Shown: one piece after another, positions 1,091-9,261 of the stretch | How positions within the stretch are numbered: the first letter of the stretch is position 1 | Layout: each line of letters begins with the position of its first letter | Source: Rhizophagus irregularis | Lineage: Eukaryota > Glomeromycota > Glomeromycetes > Glomerales > Glomeraceae | Length of the DNA stretch: 64,000 nucleotides | Assembly (NCBI RefSeq): GCF_026210795.1 | Contig: NC_089434.1 | Location: 4,402,001 to 4,466,000, forward strand | Direction: 5' to 3' | The notes under the pieces: generated by a model | Databases searched by the model: none | What the model was told of the DNA's origin: nothing | What the model saw: only the letters and a program-made list of their open reading frames with translations | Translations under genes and position numbers: made by a program

Positions 1091-1467
1091 TGACCAGTGC
1101 AAGGAACAGGCTCTTACGAAATTTCCTAAAATTTCACGATCATTCACTGATAGCAAATCCCACATTATTGGTGTTGAATACACCAAAATGAAGGTTTTCC
1201 ACTGATCAGCAGTGAATCCAGAAAAACCTTCCCCTATCGATATTTTATTTGGAATTCGACCCATGTTGGCTGGCAGTTTAATAGCTTCCACTCATTTTTC
1301 CATAATTTTAAGATCGTCCTTAGATATTTTTCCTCCATCAATCCATAAACGTTTTACAATCCAGCTGGCAATTCCGAGAAATAAATTATGCATTGGGTCT
1401 ACGACGCAATGTCTGATTGGATTGAAGTAGGGTAATCTTAACGATTCTGTCCACCTAACAAGATTAT

Positions 1468-4077
1468 CACTAGTCGAAAAAGGAATATTCGGCCTTAATA
1501 CAATTTGGCCTATATTCGACTAGAATTAATAAAATTCGACTTCAATTAGTAAAGATCTACGATTAGACATATATTCAACCTAGTTGAATTATGTTAATCA
1601 AACGTTATGCATTACGCGATACGCGTATTAAAATAAAAGTTTAAAAAAGGATGATCCTTTTTTAAACTTTTTAATTTTCTTCCTTCCCTCCTCGCCCTTT
1701 CCCTTCCTTCGTTCCCCTTTTCCTTCGTTCCAGTTTCTCTTCTTCCCCTTTCCCTCCCTTCGTTCTCCTTTCCCTTCCTTCGCTTTTCCCTTCCTTACCC
1801 TTTCCCCTTTCCTTTCGTCACTTATCTCCTTCGAAGGTATACATATACCTTCGAATTTTTACTTTTTTTAACAAAACGTTTCACTAACATTTTCATTTTT
1901 TTCTTTTTTAGATTCAAAACGCCCATTTAAAAGGCTCGGGTGGGCTTCCGAAGTATGGAAAAACCAAGTTTCGTAAGTACGAAACTTGGTTTATTTATTT
2001 ATTTTTTTTTAATTTAGTATGAACGGTTACTAACCGTTCTTTTATTACTTTTTTTAGATTCGGCCGTTCGGGTGGGCTTCCGAAGTATGGAAAAACCAAG
2101 TTTCGTAAGTACGAAACTTGGTTTATTATTTTTTTTTTAATTTAATATGAACGGTTACTAACCGTTCTTTTTTTACTTTTTTTTTAGGTTCAGCCGTTCG
2201 GGTGGGCTTCCGTGTTCCGAAGAACGGGAAAATTCCAAAGATTCGTAAGAATCTTGGATTTTTTTTTTATTTTTTAAAAAAATATTATGAAAATATTATG
2301 AACGGTTACTAATAACCGTTCTTTTCTATTTTTTAGGATCGGGTGGGCTTCCGAAGAACAGAAAACCAAGAAACCAAGATTCATAAGTAAGTACGAATCT
2401 TGGTTTAATTTTTTTGTTTTTTTTTTAATATATGAACGGTTTACTAATAACCGTTCTTTTCTTTTTTTTAGGATCGGTGGGCTTCCGAAGAACGAAAACC
2501 CAAAGATTCGTAAGTACGAATCTTTAATTTTTGTTTTTATTTATTATTATTACGAATGGGTTACTAACCATTCTTTCTTTTTTTTTAGGTTCAGGTGGGC
2601 TTCCGAAGAATGAAAACCCAAAGATAAAGATTCGTAAGTACAGTACGAATCTTTATATATTTTTTATTTTTATTTTTTTTTATCATTTTGGAACGGTTTA
2701 CTAACCGTTCCTTTCTTTTTTATAGGTTCGGGCGGGCTTTTGTGTGGAAAAACCAAGATTCGTAAGTATGAATCTTGGTTTAATTTTTTTAATTTTTTTT
2801 TTTTTAATATTAATGAACGGTTACTAATAACCGTTCTTTTTTTTTAGGATCGGGTGGAGTGGGCTTCCGACCTTCGGGAAAAGAAGAACCAAGATTCGTA
2901 AGTACGAATCTTGGTTTATTTTTTTTAATTTTTTTTTTTAATATTACGAACGGTTACTAATAACCGTTCCTTTCTTTTTTTTATAGGTTCGGGCGGGCTT
3001 TTGTGTGGAAAAACCAAAACCAAGATTCGTAAGTACGAATCTTGGTTTATTTTTTTTTGATTTTTTTTTTCAATATTAATGAACGGTTACTAATAACCGT
3101 TCTTTCTTTTTTTTAGGATCGGGTGGAGTGGGCTTCTGACCTTCGGGAAAAGAAGAACCAAGATTTGTAAGTACGAATCTTGGTTTATTTTTTTTAATTT
3201 TTTTTTTTAATATTACGAACGGTTACTAATAACCGTTCCTTTCTTTTTTTTATAGGTTCGGGCGGGCTTTTGTGTGGAAAAACCAAGATTCGTAAGTACG
3301 AATCTTGGTTTATTTTTTTTTGATTTTTTTTTTCAATATTAATGAACGGTTACTAATAACCGTTCTTTCTTTTTTTTAGGATCGGGTGGAATGGGCTTTC
3401 GACCTTCGGGAAAAGAAGAACCAAGATTCGTAAGTACGAATCTTGGTTTATTTTTTTGATTTTTTTTTTAATATTATTATGAACGGTTACTAATAACCGT
3501 TCTTTTCTTTTCTTTTTAGGTCTCGGGTGTCTCGGGTGTCTTCTGAAGAACGGAAAAAACCAAAGATTCGTAAGTAAGTACGAATCTTGGTTTTTTTTCT
3601 TATTTTTTTAATATTATGAACGGTTACTAACCGTTCTTCTCTTTTTTTTATAGGTTCGGGTGGATTGCTAAAGAACAATCAAAGATTCGTATATACGAAT
3701 ACATGAATCATGTAATTGTGGAATTGTATTTGAATTAACAATATTTTTTGTAAATTAGATAGATGCAATAATAATAATATAATTATAAAGTATTTAAGCA
3801 TTAATAAATACATTTATTTAATAAATTTGATAAAAAAAATCAAAATAAATTCATAAATAAATGGGTTGTTATTAGACCATAATTCGGCTTAAAGTTTTAA
3901 GGTCGAATATTGGTCAATTTAAACCTAAATAATGGTCGAATAATTAGTCCGAATTTGGGACGATTGGCATCCTAAATGCGCCCAAAAATTCGACCTCAAT
4001 TTGACACAGGTTAGACCATTATTCGACCTATATTCAACCTGGTCAAATTTAGGCGAATTGTCCTTTTTTGACTAGTG
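1468..4077. mobile_element. Non-autonomous CACTA-type element nested in Tnp2 gene
   Basis: The left end reads CACTAGTCGAAAAAGGA and the right end is its reverse complement with one change (TCCTTTTTTGACTAGTG). Both ends are followed inward by further ATTCG-rich subterminal similarity. The flanks are TAT at 1465-1467 and TAT at 4078-4080, a 3 bp target-site duplication as expected for the CACTA (EnSpm) superfamily. Joining 1467 to 4081 restores an open Tnp2 reading frame (HVSNN|LVRWTE), which proves the boundaries. No transposase is visible inside. The interior holds a pyrimidine-rich tract (about 1680-1830), an array of intron-like units (1837-3653) and an A+T-rich right part. Confidence 0.9.
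1837..3653 (+). repeat. Array of 14 intron-like units with hairpin donors
   Basis: Tandem units of about 120-140 bp each look like a short exon plus an intron. Putative introns start at 1837, 1973, 2105, 2245, 2387, 2510, 2634, 2762, 2898, 3029, 3167, 3292, 3430 and 3570, and end at 1911, 2057, 2187, 2336, 2471, 2588, 2725, 2847, 2986, 3116, 3255, 3379, 3519 and 3653 (75-92 bp). Nearly all have GTAAGT donors (GTATAC in the first, GTAAGA in the fourth), a TACTAAC or TACTAAT branch-point-like box, a T-tract and a TTTAG or TATAG acceptor. The donor sits at the tip of a hairpin with arms AACCAAGATTCGTA or variants. The branch box sits in a second hairpin, GAACGGTTA/TAACCGTTC. The exon pieces are 36-61 nt. 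Conceptual splicing leaves one frame open from 1912 across six exons until TAA at 2625-2627. Whether it is transcribed is unknown. Confidence 0.8.
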
Positions 4078-5687
4078 TATTTGAAACATGCTGATTTCTT
4101 TCATCTTTTGTTTTGCAATTATGCCATGCAATAGCATTTTGTCGGAAATCTTCTAAATCCCTTGGTTTAAACCAATCAGTCATATCATCGAAATTACCAA
4201 AATTACCATTGTTAGCTCATTTGTAGCACCGATGACAAGCTGCCAACGCTGATATATGGCCACATAATTTTCTTGCAGCAGGAATATCGCTACTGCAACA
4301 GATAATTGCCATTTGTACTGTTTTGCCAGTTGAATTATTTGGCGTTTTTATAATGACTCCTGTCCAAAATTCGAGTAATTCCGTAACAATTGGCAATAAA
4401 AAATGATTTATGTTATCTGCATGTACTTCGTGCGGTCCTGGAAGTAGTCCTAGGATTAGCATATTCTCCTGTCTAAATCGTATTTCACGAGGAAGATTGC
4501 ATATTACCCCATAAATCACACCCGTACTATATATTGTTCGATCGAAAGGTTGAAACCAATCGAGGTTAATCATTATTCCTAGATTGGAATCAGCGAGTTC
4601 GGGCGTAAAAAATAGGGTATCATCTGACTTGAATGTTTTCCAAACCTCTCCATCATAAATGTCTGCTAATATATCTCCGTTAACATGCCGATTTGCCCAT
4701 TTTGCTAAATTTTGTTCGAAATTAGGACGTTGATACATAGTAAAAATTTGTGTTTTTAAATCTGACATAGGGAATACTATGCGAGGACGCTTTATATAAC
4801 CATTATTTACTGGAACGTTCTTTAGCAATTCCTCTCCGCAAACCTCCCTATACTTTTTCATCAGATGTTTAGGAAACTCAACTCGACTACACTTGAGTCC
4901 TGGTGAGTGGTGACGCTTCCGTTACTTATTCATTTTGTCCTAAAATTTCCCCAATTTTATACAGATTGTTACATTTTGGGCACACAGCATATGTTTTTGT
5001 TGCCTTGTCAATGCGTAGCAATTTCTTTGCAGAATAGGATGAGGATGGGAAATTAGCAAATCTTTTTGAATCAGCATCTTTCAATACTTGGCTAAAGAAT
5101 CCAATCAAGGAAGATATGGAAACCTCGGAATGACGGAATCTTGATTGATACTTAAATATCCATATAAGTATCCAAGATTCAGAAAATTCTACATCTGAAT
5201 CAGCACACATGAAATTTTCATTATCGCCAAAATCCTCTAATTCAGGAGCAGCGAATCATTCATCATCAGCAGAAGTTTCATCATTCAAGTCTTCACTTTG
5301 GTCATCATCAATCGGTGAGCTGAAGCCAGTATCTTTGTTATCAAGTTCATCAATCAATACATCATTAACAGCCGATTCTACTGCTTTAAATTTCTCTTTT
5401 CTTTCTCATTTAGTCGGGATGTGAATTGGTTCTTGCGATTCGGATGTTGATGAACTTAATAAACCCGATGAACTTGAGGATGCGTTTGAAGTTTCATCAT
5501 CATTATTGTCTATTTGAACTCGCTTTGATACTGATTTACTGACCTTTGTAGATCTTGATGAACGATTCATTTGCTCATATTCAGCCTCGTGTTTTACTTT
5601 TGTTCTTGGATCAACTAATTTTCCGTTACATTCATCACAATGACACGAGACTTTTTTTCTGGGTTTGATTGCAGGTTTTGGTGGCAT

Positions 5688-8304: not shown

Positions 8305-9261
8305 TAGAGCTCCGAACAGGTCAGCCAAATTCAGGTAACCTGACCTGACCTGACCTGAAATTCAGGTCAGGTATGAGATTTTTAAAAAAAATTCAGGTCA
8401 GGTATGAAGATTGACCTGACCTGATTGACCTGTTGACCTGAAACTATTGATTCTACTATATAATAAAAGTGAGTTGCAGTATTGCGGTTCACTTTTTTAT
8501 ATAGATTCTATATAAAAAAAGTGAGTTGCGGTATTGCGATTCACTTTTTTATATTAATTTCATATAATAAAAGTGAGTTGCGATATTGCGATTTACTTTT
8601 TTATATTAATTCTATATAAAAAAAGTGAATTGCAATACCGTAACTCACTTTTTTTATATAGAATCTATATAAAAAAGTGAATCGCAATACCGCAACTCAC
8701 TTTTATTATATGAAATCAATATAAAAAAGTGAATCGCAATACCGCAACTCACTTTTTTTATATAGAATCTATATAAAAAAGTGAATCGCAATACCGCAAC
8801 TCACTTTTTTTATACAAAATCAATATAAAAAAGTGAATCGCAATACCGCAACTCACTTTTTTTATATTAATTCTATATAAAAAAAGTGAATTGCAGTATT
8901 GGGATTCACTTTTTTATGATTTTAATATAAAAATATTGAATTGCAATATTTTGAGAAAAAACGTTGCAAAAACGTTTTTTCATAATATTATATTAAAAAA
9001 ATGTTTCGTAACATTTTTTTTTTTGATATTTCAATAATAACGTTGCGAAAACATTTTTTTCATAATGTTATATTAAAAAAAAAAAGTTTTGTACCGTTTT
9101 TTTTCAATACTTAATAAAAATAGTCCTGAAATTTTTCAGGTTTCAGGTCAGGTCAGGTCAAACAGACAACCTGATATAACCTGACCTGACCTGACCTGAA
9201 AAAAAATTTCAGGTCAGGTTTATCAATTAACCTGACCTGACCTGACCCATTCGGAGCTCTA
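8305..9261. mobile_element. Non-autonomous hAT-type element in exon 4
   Basis: A 957 bp element with perfect 12 bp terminal inverted repeats TAGAGCTCCGAA/TTCGGAGCTCTA and the 8 bp target-site duplication ATTCGGAC (8297-8304 and 9262-9269), both diagnostic of hAT elements. Removing it rejoins GAG GAG TCC GAA GTT AAT TCG GAC with AAT GAT TCA AAT and restores the host reading frame. Subterminal regions are packed with AGGTC/GACCT direct and inverted repeats (CAGGTCAGGTCAGGT). The centre is an array of self-complementary units. No transposase gene is present. Confidence 0.92.
8466..8930. repeat. Tandem self-complementary hairpin units
   Basis: Eight or so copies of an approximately 57 bp unit with a 24-26 bp near-palindrome, GTGAATCGCAATACCGCAAC followed by TCAC, separated by ATATAGAATCTATATAAAAA-like spacers. 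The orientation of the palindromes flips part way through. They form the core of the hAT-type element. Confidence 0.85.

Follow-up and report, generated by a model that had tools for sequence, protein, structure and literature searches.

Sequence analysis suggests a CACTA-type transposon carrying a tandem array of spliceosomal intron-like units in Rhizophagus irregularis

Tandem or mobile spliceosomal introns have been described in several systems, which provide the background for a locus in Rhizophagus irregularis: a 64,000-nucleotide stretch (C6:4402001–4466000; the window) in which a CACTA-type element at 1468–4077, here called the window copy, holds 14 intron-shaped units in tandem (1837–3653). 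Its nearest relatives are non-autonomous CACTA (CMC/EnSpm) transposons, with which it shares CACTA ends, 3-bp duplications, short subterminal repeats and a tnp2 relative with matching ends, and from which it differs in that the cargo is an intron array. Introners and introner-like elements are mobile DNA bearing spliceosomal signals, many families having terminal repeats and short duplications; however, the introner itself is one intron within a gene, whereas the present element comprises many tandem introns and its ends are not splice sites (PMC9860276). Symmetrical stwintrons and fungal introner-like elements are likewise multiplying fungal spliceosomal introns with strong inverted-repeat structure, but they integrate at gene positions without flanking duplications and their symmetry spans the whole intron, in contrast to one hairpin per splice signal here (PMC8469720). 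The single host transcript SNHG14 contains 29 and 48 tandem introns for SNORD116 and SNORD115; those introns hold snoRNAs, whereas no separate intronic RNA element was recognised in the present units, which lie inside a transposon (PMC11608373). Schistosome micro-exon genes also have many very short exons, but encode secreted proteins and have long introns (PMC10526429). In animals, HUSH surveillance targets intronless elements, and introns can protect transgenes from silencing (PMC10915761), while SOS splicing can excise transposon sequence from mRNA (PMC13247085); both would be parallels for the R. irregularis arrays. The words 'intron' and 'splic' occur 0 times in a term search of the main texts of two surveys of R. 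irregularis transposable elements (PMC8647823, PMC11075540), and among open papers we found no description of such intron-array cargo.

Thirteen of the 14 units in the window copy (1973–3653) combine a GTAAG donor, a TACTAA[C/T] box and a TAG end, and in all 13 the donor, branch box, T-tract and AG follow one another in the order and spacing of U2 spliceosomal introns. These introns are 79–92 nt long, with 21–27 nt between the branch A and the AG, and are separated by exons of 36–61 nt. The first unit deviates (75 nt, GTATAC donor, CACTAAC box), and there are two lesser exceptions, one unit with GTAAGA and one with GTAAGT displaced behind ATAA. The initial annotation of this DNA had given introns of 75–92 nt and exons of 36–61 nt, which our measurements reproduce; its statement that every unit carries the full signal set was slightly too strong, holding for 13/14 and failing for the first. 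Its placement of donor and branch box on two separate hairpins was seen in each of four units of the window copy that were folded: a 10–14 bp stem carries the donor at its apex and a second stem the branch box, with folding z-scores of –4.0 to –5.0 (0/200 shuffles as stable).

The proposal that the array resides in a non-autonomous CACTA-type transposon is borne out by several features. The terminal inverted repeats, CACTAGTCGAAAAAGGA and TCCTTTTTTGACTAGTG, start with CACTA, the element is flanked by a TAT duplication, and its joined flanks align to four uninterrupted paralogous copies (97–99% over 299–300 bp), which represent empty sites. Duplications of 3 bp occur in 10/11 copies read at both ends (the window copy, L001–L006, L008, L009 and L019, where L-numbers denote other genomic stretches fetched), the exception being L007, with an altered left end and no matching 3-bp flanks. 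Across the genome (146.7 Mb in 32 contigs), the 43-base left end recurs at 25 places, 25/25 of them within about 4 kb of array units; the other end recurs at 59 places, of which ~19 have no known array nearby, and units were present in 5/5 fetched from among these ~19. With 30/30 checked end places near arrays, the array is, within the places examined, a constant cargo of this end family. A relative at C17:71308–78483 (L070+L073) encodes tnp2 (PF02992, E=1.5e-11), and its ends match the window copy over 131 bp at the right of that copy (90%) and 113 bp at its left (78%); it has no matching 3-bp flanks (CCA and AAG), and a model of window-type units, which does not represent other unit types, found no unit within it. 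Mobility would be supplied by a tnp2 transposase from a relative whose ends match. A gene with a MULE transposase domain (PF10551; L041:7898 to L042:about 1260) that adjoins an array was rejected as a mobility partner: the stretch bears its own imperfect terminal repeats (~80 bp) and is therefore read as a separate nested element, for which no target duplication was found.

Two further observations concern insertion sites. L064 (C14:3868440–3870250) holds a different insertion of ~1.47 kb at almost the same target position as the window copy, in paralogous tnp2 sequence and with no window-type unit. By eye, the left end of L001 suggests that this copy was inserted into the donor hairpin of another array, with a 3-bp flank GTA after GATTC.

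To compare the parts of the units, substitutions were counted in 22 copies, each aligned to the window copy (L046, with a bit score under 600, was excluded). Pooled rates per site rose from 0.041 in splice signals through 0.074 in stems and 0.106 in T-rich spacers to 0.170 in exon bodies, and individual values were 0.028 for GTAAGT, 0.047 for TACTAA, 0.059 for AG and 0.057–0.086 for the stems. The pooled signals changed less than stems in 20/22 copies and less than exon bodies in 22/22; separately, the donor fell below its own stems in 21/22 and the branch box below its own in 18/22. When gaps were counted as changes, the donor remained lower than its stems (0.121 versus 0.151; 16/22 copies), and donor and branch box were each below exons (0.228) in 21/22. 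A strict subset of 60/264 unit alignments, defined by ungapped exons with at least 85% identity and hence chosen for conserved exons, gave 0.015 for signals, 0.051 for stems, 0.062 for spacers and 0.067 for exons. Among 162 distinct units from other arrays, most of which were picked by exact donor match with a consequent mild bias, conservation averaged 0.96 for GTAAGT, 0.95 for ACTAA and 0.88–0.93 for the arms. The motif [C/T]TAA[C/T] is kept in 318/325 units, and GTAAG together with CTAA[C/T] in 13/13 units of the window copy. This ranking, with fewest substitutions in signals, more in stems and most in exons, is opposite to what a protein gene would show and is consistent with an RNA maintained for its splicing.

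Covariation, which the initial annotation had proposed examining across units, is evident in the donor stems. Alignment columns 43–58 contain 44 double changes with 5 non-pairs against 80 expected under independence, columns 39–62 contain 150 double changes with 72 non-pairs against 237, and overall pairing is 89.1% versus 80.8% expected. In the branch stem a single pair stands out (99–114; 56 double changes, 40 non-pairs versus 77 expected). The counts derive from related copies and so are not independent events, and they were scored by alignment columns, since selecting units by GTAAGTAC or by ACTAAT alone brings together hairpins of differing geometry. The hairpins are also strongly oriented: among 843 in 45 arrays, GTAAG lies on the array strand in 303 and on the reverse in 9, and CTAA in 355 and 9, respectively. 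As an ordinary-intron control we used CCT chaperonin genes, where 16 exon gaps included 4 without a candidate intron and only 2 candidates above threshold; the donor energy of these was –4.45 (n=2, a thin control), compared to –14.26 for 88 distinct array donors. The window-type model had no match in the nine CCT loci. Separately, some donor hairpin tips in L023 (C1:4308900–4310900, minus strand) are inverted (GATTCGTACTTACGAATC), destroying the donor, and such inverted tips number 9 among the 843 hairpins.

Relatives of the array region are dispersed through the genome (215 matches; 406 candidates, 40 of them scored). Allowing one mismatch, the donor hairpin 18-mer occurs at 485 places and the branch hairpin 22-mer at 572, against 0 for either reversed pattern, which excludes chance. 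Copies vary in unit number, with 14 in the window copy and up to about 20 in relatives. Some arrays are built of other sequences. Units in L043 and L065–L067 have an exon hairpin of the form GCCGGCTTGAATAC...ACCGGAC, which as a pattern occurs at 42 genome places (control 0), with donors GTAGTGAG or GTAAGAAA, and many carry CTAAC in a AAGAAACG...CGTTTCTT stem; L041 and L065 hold further units in which a GTTTCGAAA hairpin has the donor at its base, and one folded unit from L041 gave a z-score of –3.18. At E<=10 the window-type model found no match in L043:5200–6300, L065:900–1700 or L065:1690–2780, and later L041 units match it weakly (best E 0.0036). The rule-based intron parser misses or misplaces some introns in these other-type units. 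A pyrimidine-rich leader precedes the array in L041, L043 and L065, as in the window copy. By eye, the arrays of L043 and L065 are flanked by different inverted ends (CATCAGGAAGTCAC... and CATCAGGAAGTCACRGGAAAAATGTTCATC), and given these ends the array cargo may have moved between end families. Also by eye, the last exon of L065 (about 2775–2990) contains an open frame of ~55 codons after the last acceptor, and that of the window copy an 11-codon frame. An exact-pattern scan of IMG/VR, from which near records may be left out, returned 0 matches.

Read at the level of sequence, then, this is a mobile element with the array as standing cargo, with the fewest substitutions in its splice signals, with covarying donor stems and with no significant protein-coding signature, and the same plan is repeated with different unit sequences. 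That the array has been selected as introns, and as non-coding cargo, is the reading towards which we lean, by little more than an even chance. Several observations weigh against it. With gaps counted, the branch box changes more than its stems (0.124 versus 0.085) and is lower in only 5/22 copies; part of these gaps may reflect alternation between TACTAAC and TACTAATAAC, both of which keep CTAA, and the two effects were not separated. The AG alone is no better conserved than the branch 3′ arm, and in the tight core alignment of units conservation differs little between stems and signals. GTAAG with CTAA[C/T] is kept in only 256/325 units of the window copy and L001–L020, and in 112/163 in other arrays. 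Pairing of the branch stem is overall barely above independence (83.3% versus 82.2%), 167/843 hairpins carry neither signal, base-shuffled arrays still yield 278 hairpins, and the fold of an other-type unit from L043 is not more stable than those of its shuffles (z –0.99, 37/200). A search with one spliced-junction pattern gave 0 genome matches; its reversed control gave 70, a number probably explained by the near-palindromic exon. In the strict subset, rates at codon positions 1, 2 and 3 were 0.045, 0.056 and 0.073, so that position 3 is slightly faster (chi-square, about p 0.08). Finally, the copies are related, all rates are relative to the window copy, and slippage of the tandem register inflates the exon and gap figures.

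A rival explanation is that of satellite-like palindromic repeats, which would matter for their DNA or for their hairpins (for example in transposase binding, or as a recombination-prone repeat) and whose resemblance to splice sites would be incidental. Covarying donor stems, unit numbers that differ between copies, a tight alignment in which stems trail signals only slightly in conservation, and branch stems that outdo the branch box once gaps are counted are all compatible with this explanation. However, by substitutions the signals change less than the stems; the succession of donor, branch box, T-tract and TAG is found again where stem sequences and geometries differ; the palindromes are nearly symmetric and yet GTAAG and CTAA favour one strand, although related copies are not independent here either; and the ends common to the window copy and the tnp2 relative lie outside the array. 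We regard the satellite explanation as unlikely, though the gap count for the branch box made it slightly less so, while trimming our preference for selected introns from a modest one to a slight one and lowering a shade further the already low probability given below to a shielding benefit. Of the expectations attached to the initial annotation, that GTAAGT, TACTAAC and AG be better conserved than the surrounding hairpin bases holds for the donor under both ways of counting and is mixed for the branch box; the broader claim of introns rather than a look-alike satellite is mostly upheld by the pooled signals and qualified by the gapped branch-box result.

Less probable as a source of the pattern is a gene whose tandemly repeated exons encode a protein, for example a secreted repeat protein; we rate it as quite unlikely. 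Splicing of the window copy in silico yields an 82-aa frame starting in the first mini-exon and stopping in the sixth, confirming an earlier remark that the first six exons stay open in one frame, and a longer frame of 179 aa. Spliced frames of at least 150 aa occur in 6/21 copies as parsed (maximum 205 aa), the shortest being 9 aa, in part since the parser drops introns. Stop triplets are scarce, with 6 in all frames of the exons of the window copy against a mean of 30.5 (minimum 22) in base shuffles, and the strict subset shows the weak third-position excess given above. However, random exon phasing reaches the length of the 179-aa frame in 60/500 trials, and shuffles that preserve dinucleotides contain nearly as few stops (mean 11.5, minimum 6). 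Corresponding exons occur in each of the three frames, 193 inner exons have lengths of 0, 1 and 2 modulo 3 in 88, 37 and 68 cases, and 291/358 exon gaps in the 22 copies are frame-shifting. Exon substitution rates at codon positions 1, 2 and 3 in the same copies are 0.143, 0.163 and 0.151; neither the frame maintenance nor the third-position excess of a tandem-exon protein gene was found there, and there is no significant codon periodicity. A Pfam search of two spliced frames gave no match. We also considered the SP7 effectors, whose genes are described as having a conserved intron ahead of the first repeat and repeats ending in Y[KR]Rx[AP]x[AP]; compared by eye, the array lacks these traits, and an SP7-like family was rejected.

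Improbable to a similar or slightly greater degree is a host-gene-like factory of intron-derived small RNAs, comparable to the snoRNA host gene SNHG14. Non-coding exons that evolve faster than introns are the pattern expected of such a gene, and the window-type introns contain strong hairpins. However, the conserved parts are the splice signals and their stems, the remaining intron being T-rich and variable; the donor stem straddles the exon border and would be cut apart by splicing; and Rfam gives six matches, all below curated scores.

The initial annotation had favoured an introner-like system, in which the element would plant new introns in host genes or would be spliced out as an intron itself. 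A mobile element that has short target duplications and contains introns ready for use would suit this, but we consider it very improbable. Of 20 stretches with an exact donor match outside window-type copies (chosen among the first 100 matches listed), 19 are arrays with two units or more, and L038 scores one unit in a seemingly truncated array; no unit was recognised inside an ordinary gene in these 20 sampled stretches, where no gene annotation was made. The first donor (1837) and last acceptor (3653) lie inside an element that is antisense to the tnp2 gene fragment it interrupts, so that splicing would leave 369 and 424 nt of element plus the mini-exons and neither the spreading nor the disguise is supported.

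The features of the window copy and its insertion site are collected in Table 1. Elsewhere in the window, positions 1–701, upstream of the element, are an array of 81-bp tandem repeats, and 8456–8948 contain 52-bp palindromic repeats in tandem, possibly another hairpin satellite.

Table 1. Coordinates, in window positions, of the intron-array element and its insertion site.
Feature	Position	Strand	Basis
Target-site duplication TAT, left	1465–1467		Empty sites
Whole CACTA-type element, 2610 bp	1468–4077	+	
Left terminal inverted repeat CACTAGTCGAAAAAGGA	1468–1484	+	
Left subterminal region; with the repeat, matches right end of tnp2 relative (113 bp, 78%)	1485–1600	+	
Pyrimidine-rich leader and end of first exon (presumed promoter/5′ UTR)	1675–1836	+	
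Intron 1, GTATAC donor in hairpin, CACTAAC, TTTTTTAG	1837–1911	+	
13 mini-exons between introns (36–61 nt), most-substituted class	1912–3569	+	
Intron 2	1973–2057	+	
Intron 3	2105–2187	+	
Intron 4 (GTAAGA)	2245–2336	+	
Intron 5	2387–2471	+	
Intron 6	2510–2588	+	
Intron 7	2634–2725	+	
Intron 8	2762–2847	+	
Intron 9	2898–2986	+	
Intron 10	3029–3116	+	
Intron 11	3167–3255	+	
Intron 12	3292–3379	+	
Intron 13	3430–3519	+	
Intron 14	3570–3653	+	
Last exon and AT-rich 3′ region (presumed 3′ UTR)	3654–3860	+	
Right subterminal GGTCGAA-rich region; with the repeat, matches left end of tnp2 relative (131 bp, 90%)	3870–4060	+	
Right terminal inverted repeat (TCCTTTTTTGACTAGTG on +)	4061–4077	–	
Target-site duplication TAT, right	4078–4080		Empty sites
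tnp2 (PF02992) transposase gene fragment of the host sequence of insertion, antisense to array	4217–4861	–	

Taken together, the analysis suggests a non-autonomous CACTA (CMC/EnSpm) transposon whose sole recognisable cargo would be a non-coding transcription unit, consisting of a pyrimidine-rich leader, minute introns whose spliceosomal signals are almost perfect, exons of ~40 nt and a 3′ region. Under the preferred reading, that the array is selected as introns, it would be transcribed and spliced, and selection would act on splicing itself. The hairpins may present each donor and branch point locally, such that near-identical neighbouring introns are not mis-paired; one arm of the donor stem lies in the exon, so splicing destroys the stem, which can therefore act only before splicing. 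The most likely benefit, and the least certain step, is that heavy splicing would make transcript and locus resemble a host gene, shielding the element from silencing directed at intron-poor elements. We prefer this benefit on the strength of the animal case, where transgenes with introns are protected from HUSH silencing (PMC10915761), and hold it as a tentative proposal that is more likely wrong than right. Equally doubtful, taken as a whole, is the fuller picture of a transposon class with spliceosomal intron arrays as functional cargo, kept by selection for heavy splicing, mimicking an intron-rich host gene to escape silencing, with paired hairpins preventing mis-joining, and with several unrelated unit sequences, within a single fungal genome, in which the strategy originated or was rebuilt.

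If this picture is true, a transposon would be under selection to retain introns as cargo, as opposed to generating them as an accidental by-product, and the arrays would make it possible to examine, beyond animals, whether splicing shields mobile DNA from silencing. With their hundreds of units, they would also be natural tandem substrates for the study of how the spliceosome chooses partners among near-identical introns. Within R. irregularis, intron-array elements may explain part of the unclassified repeats in this genome.

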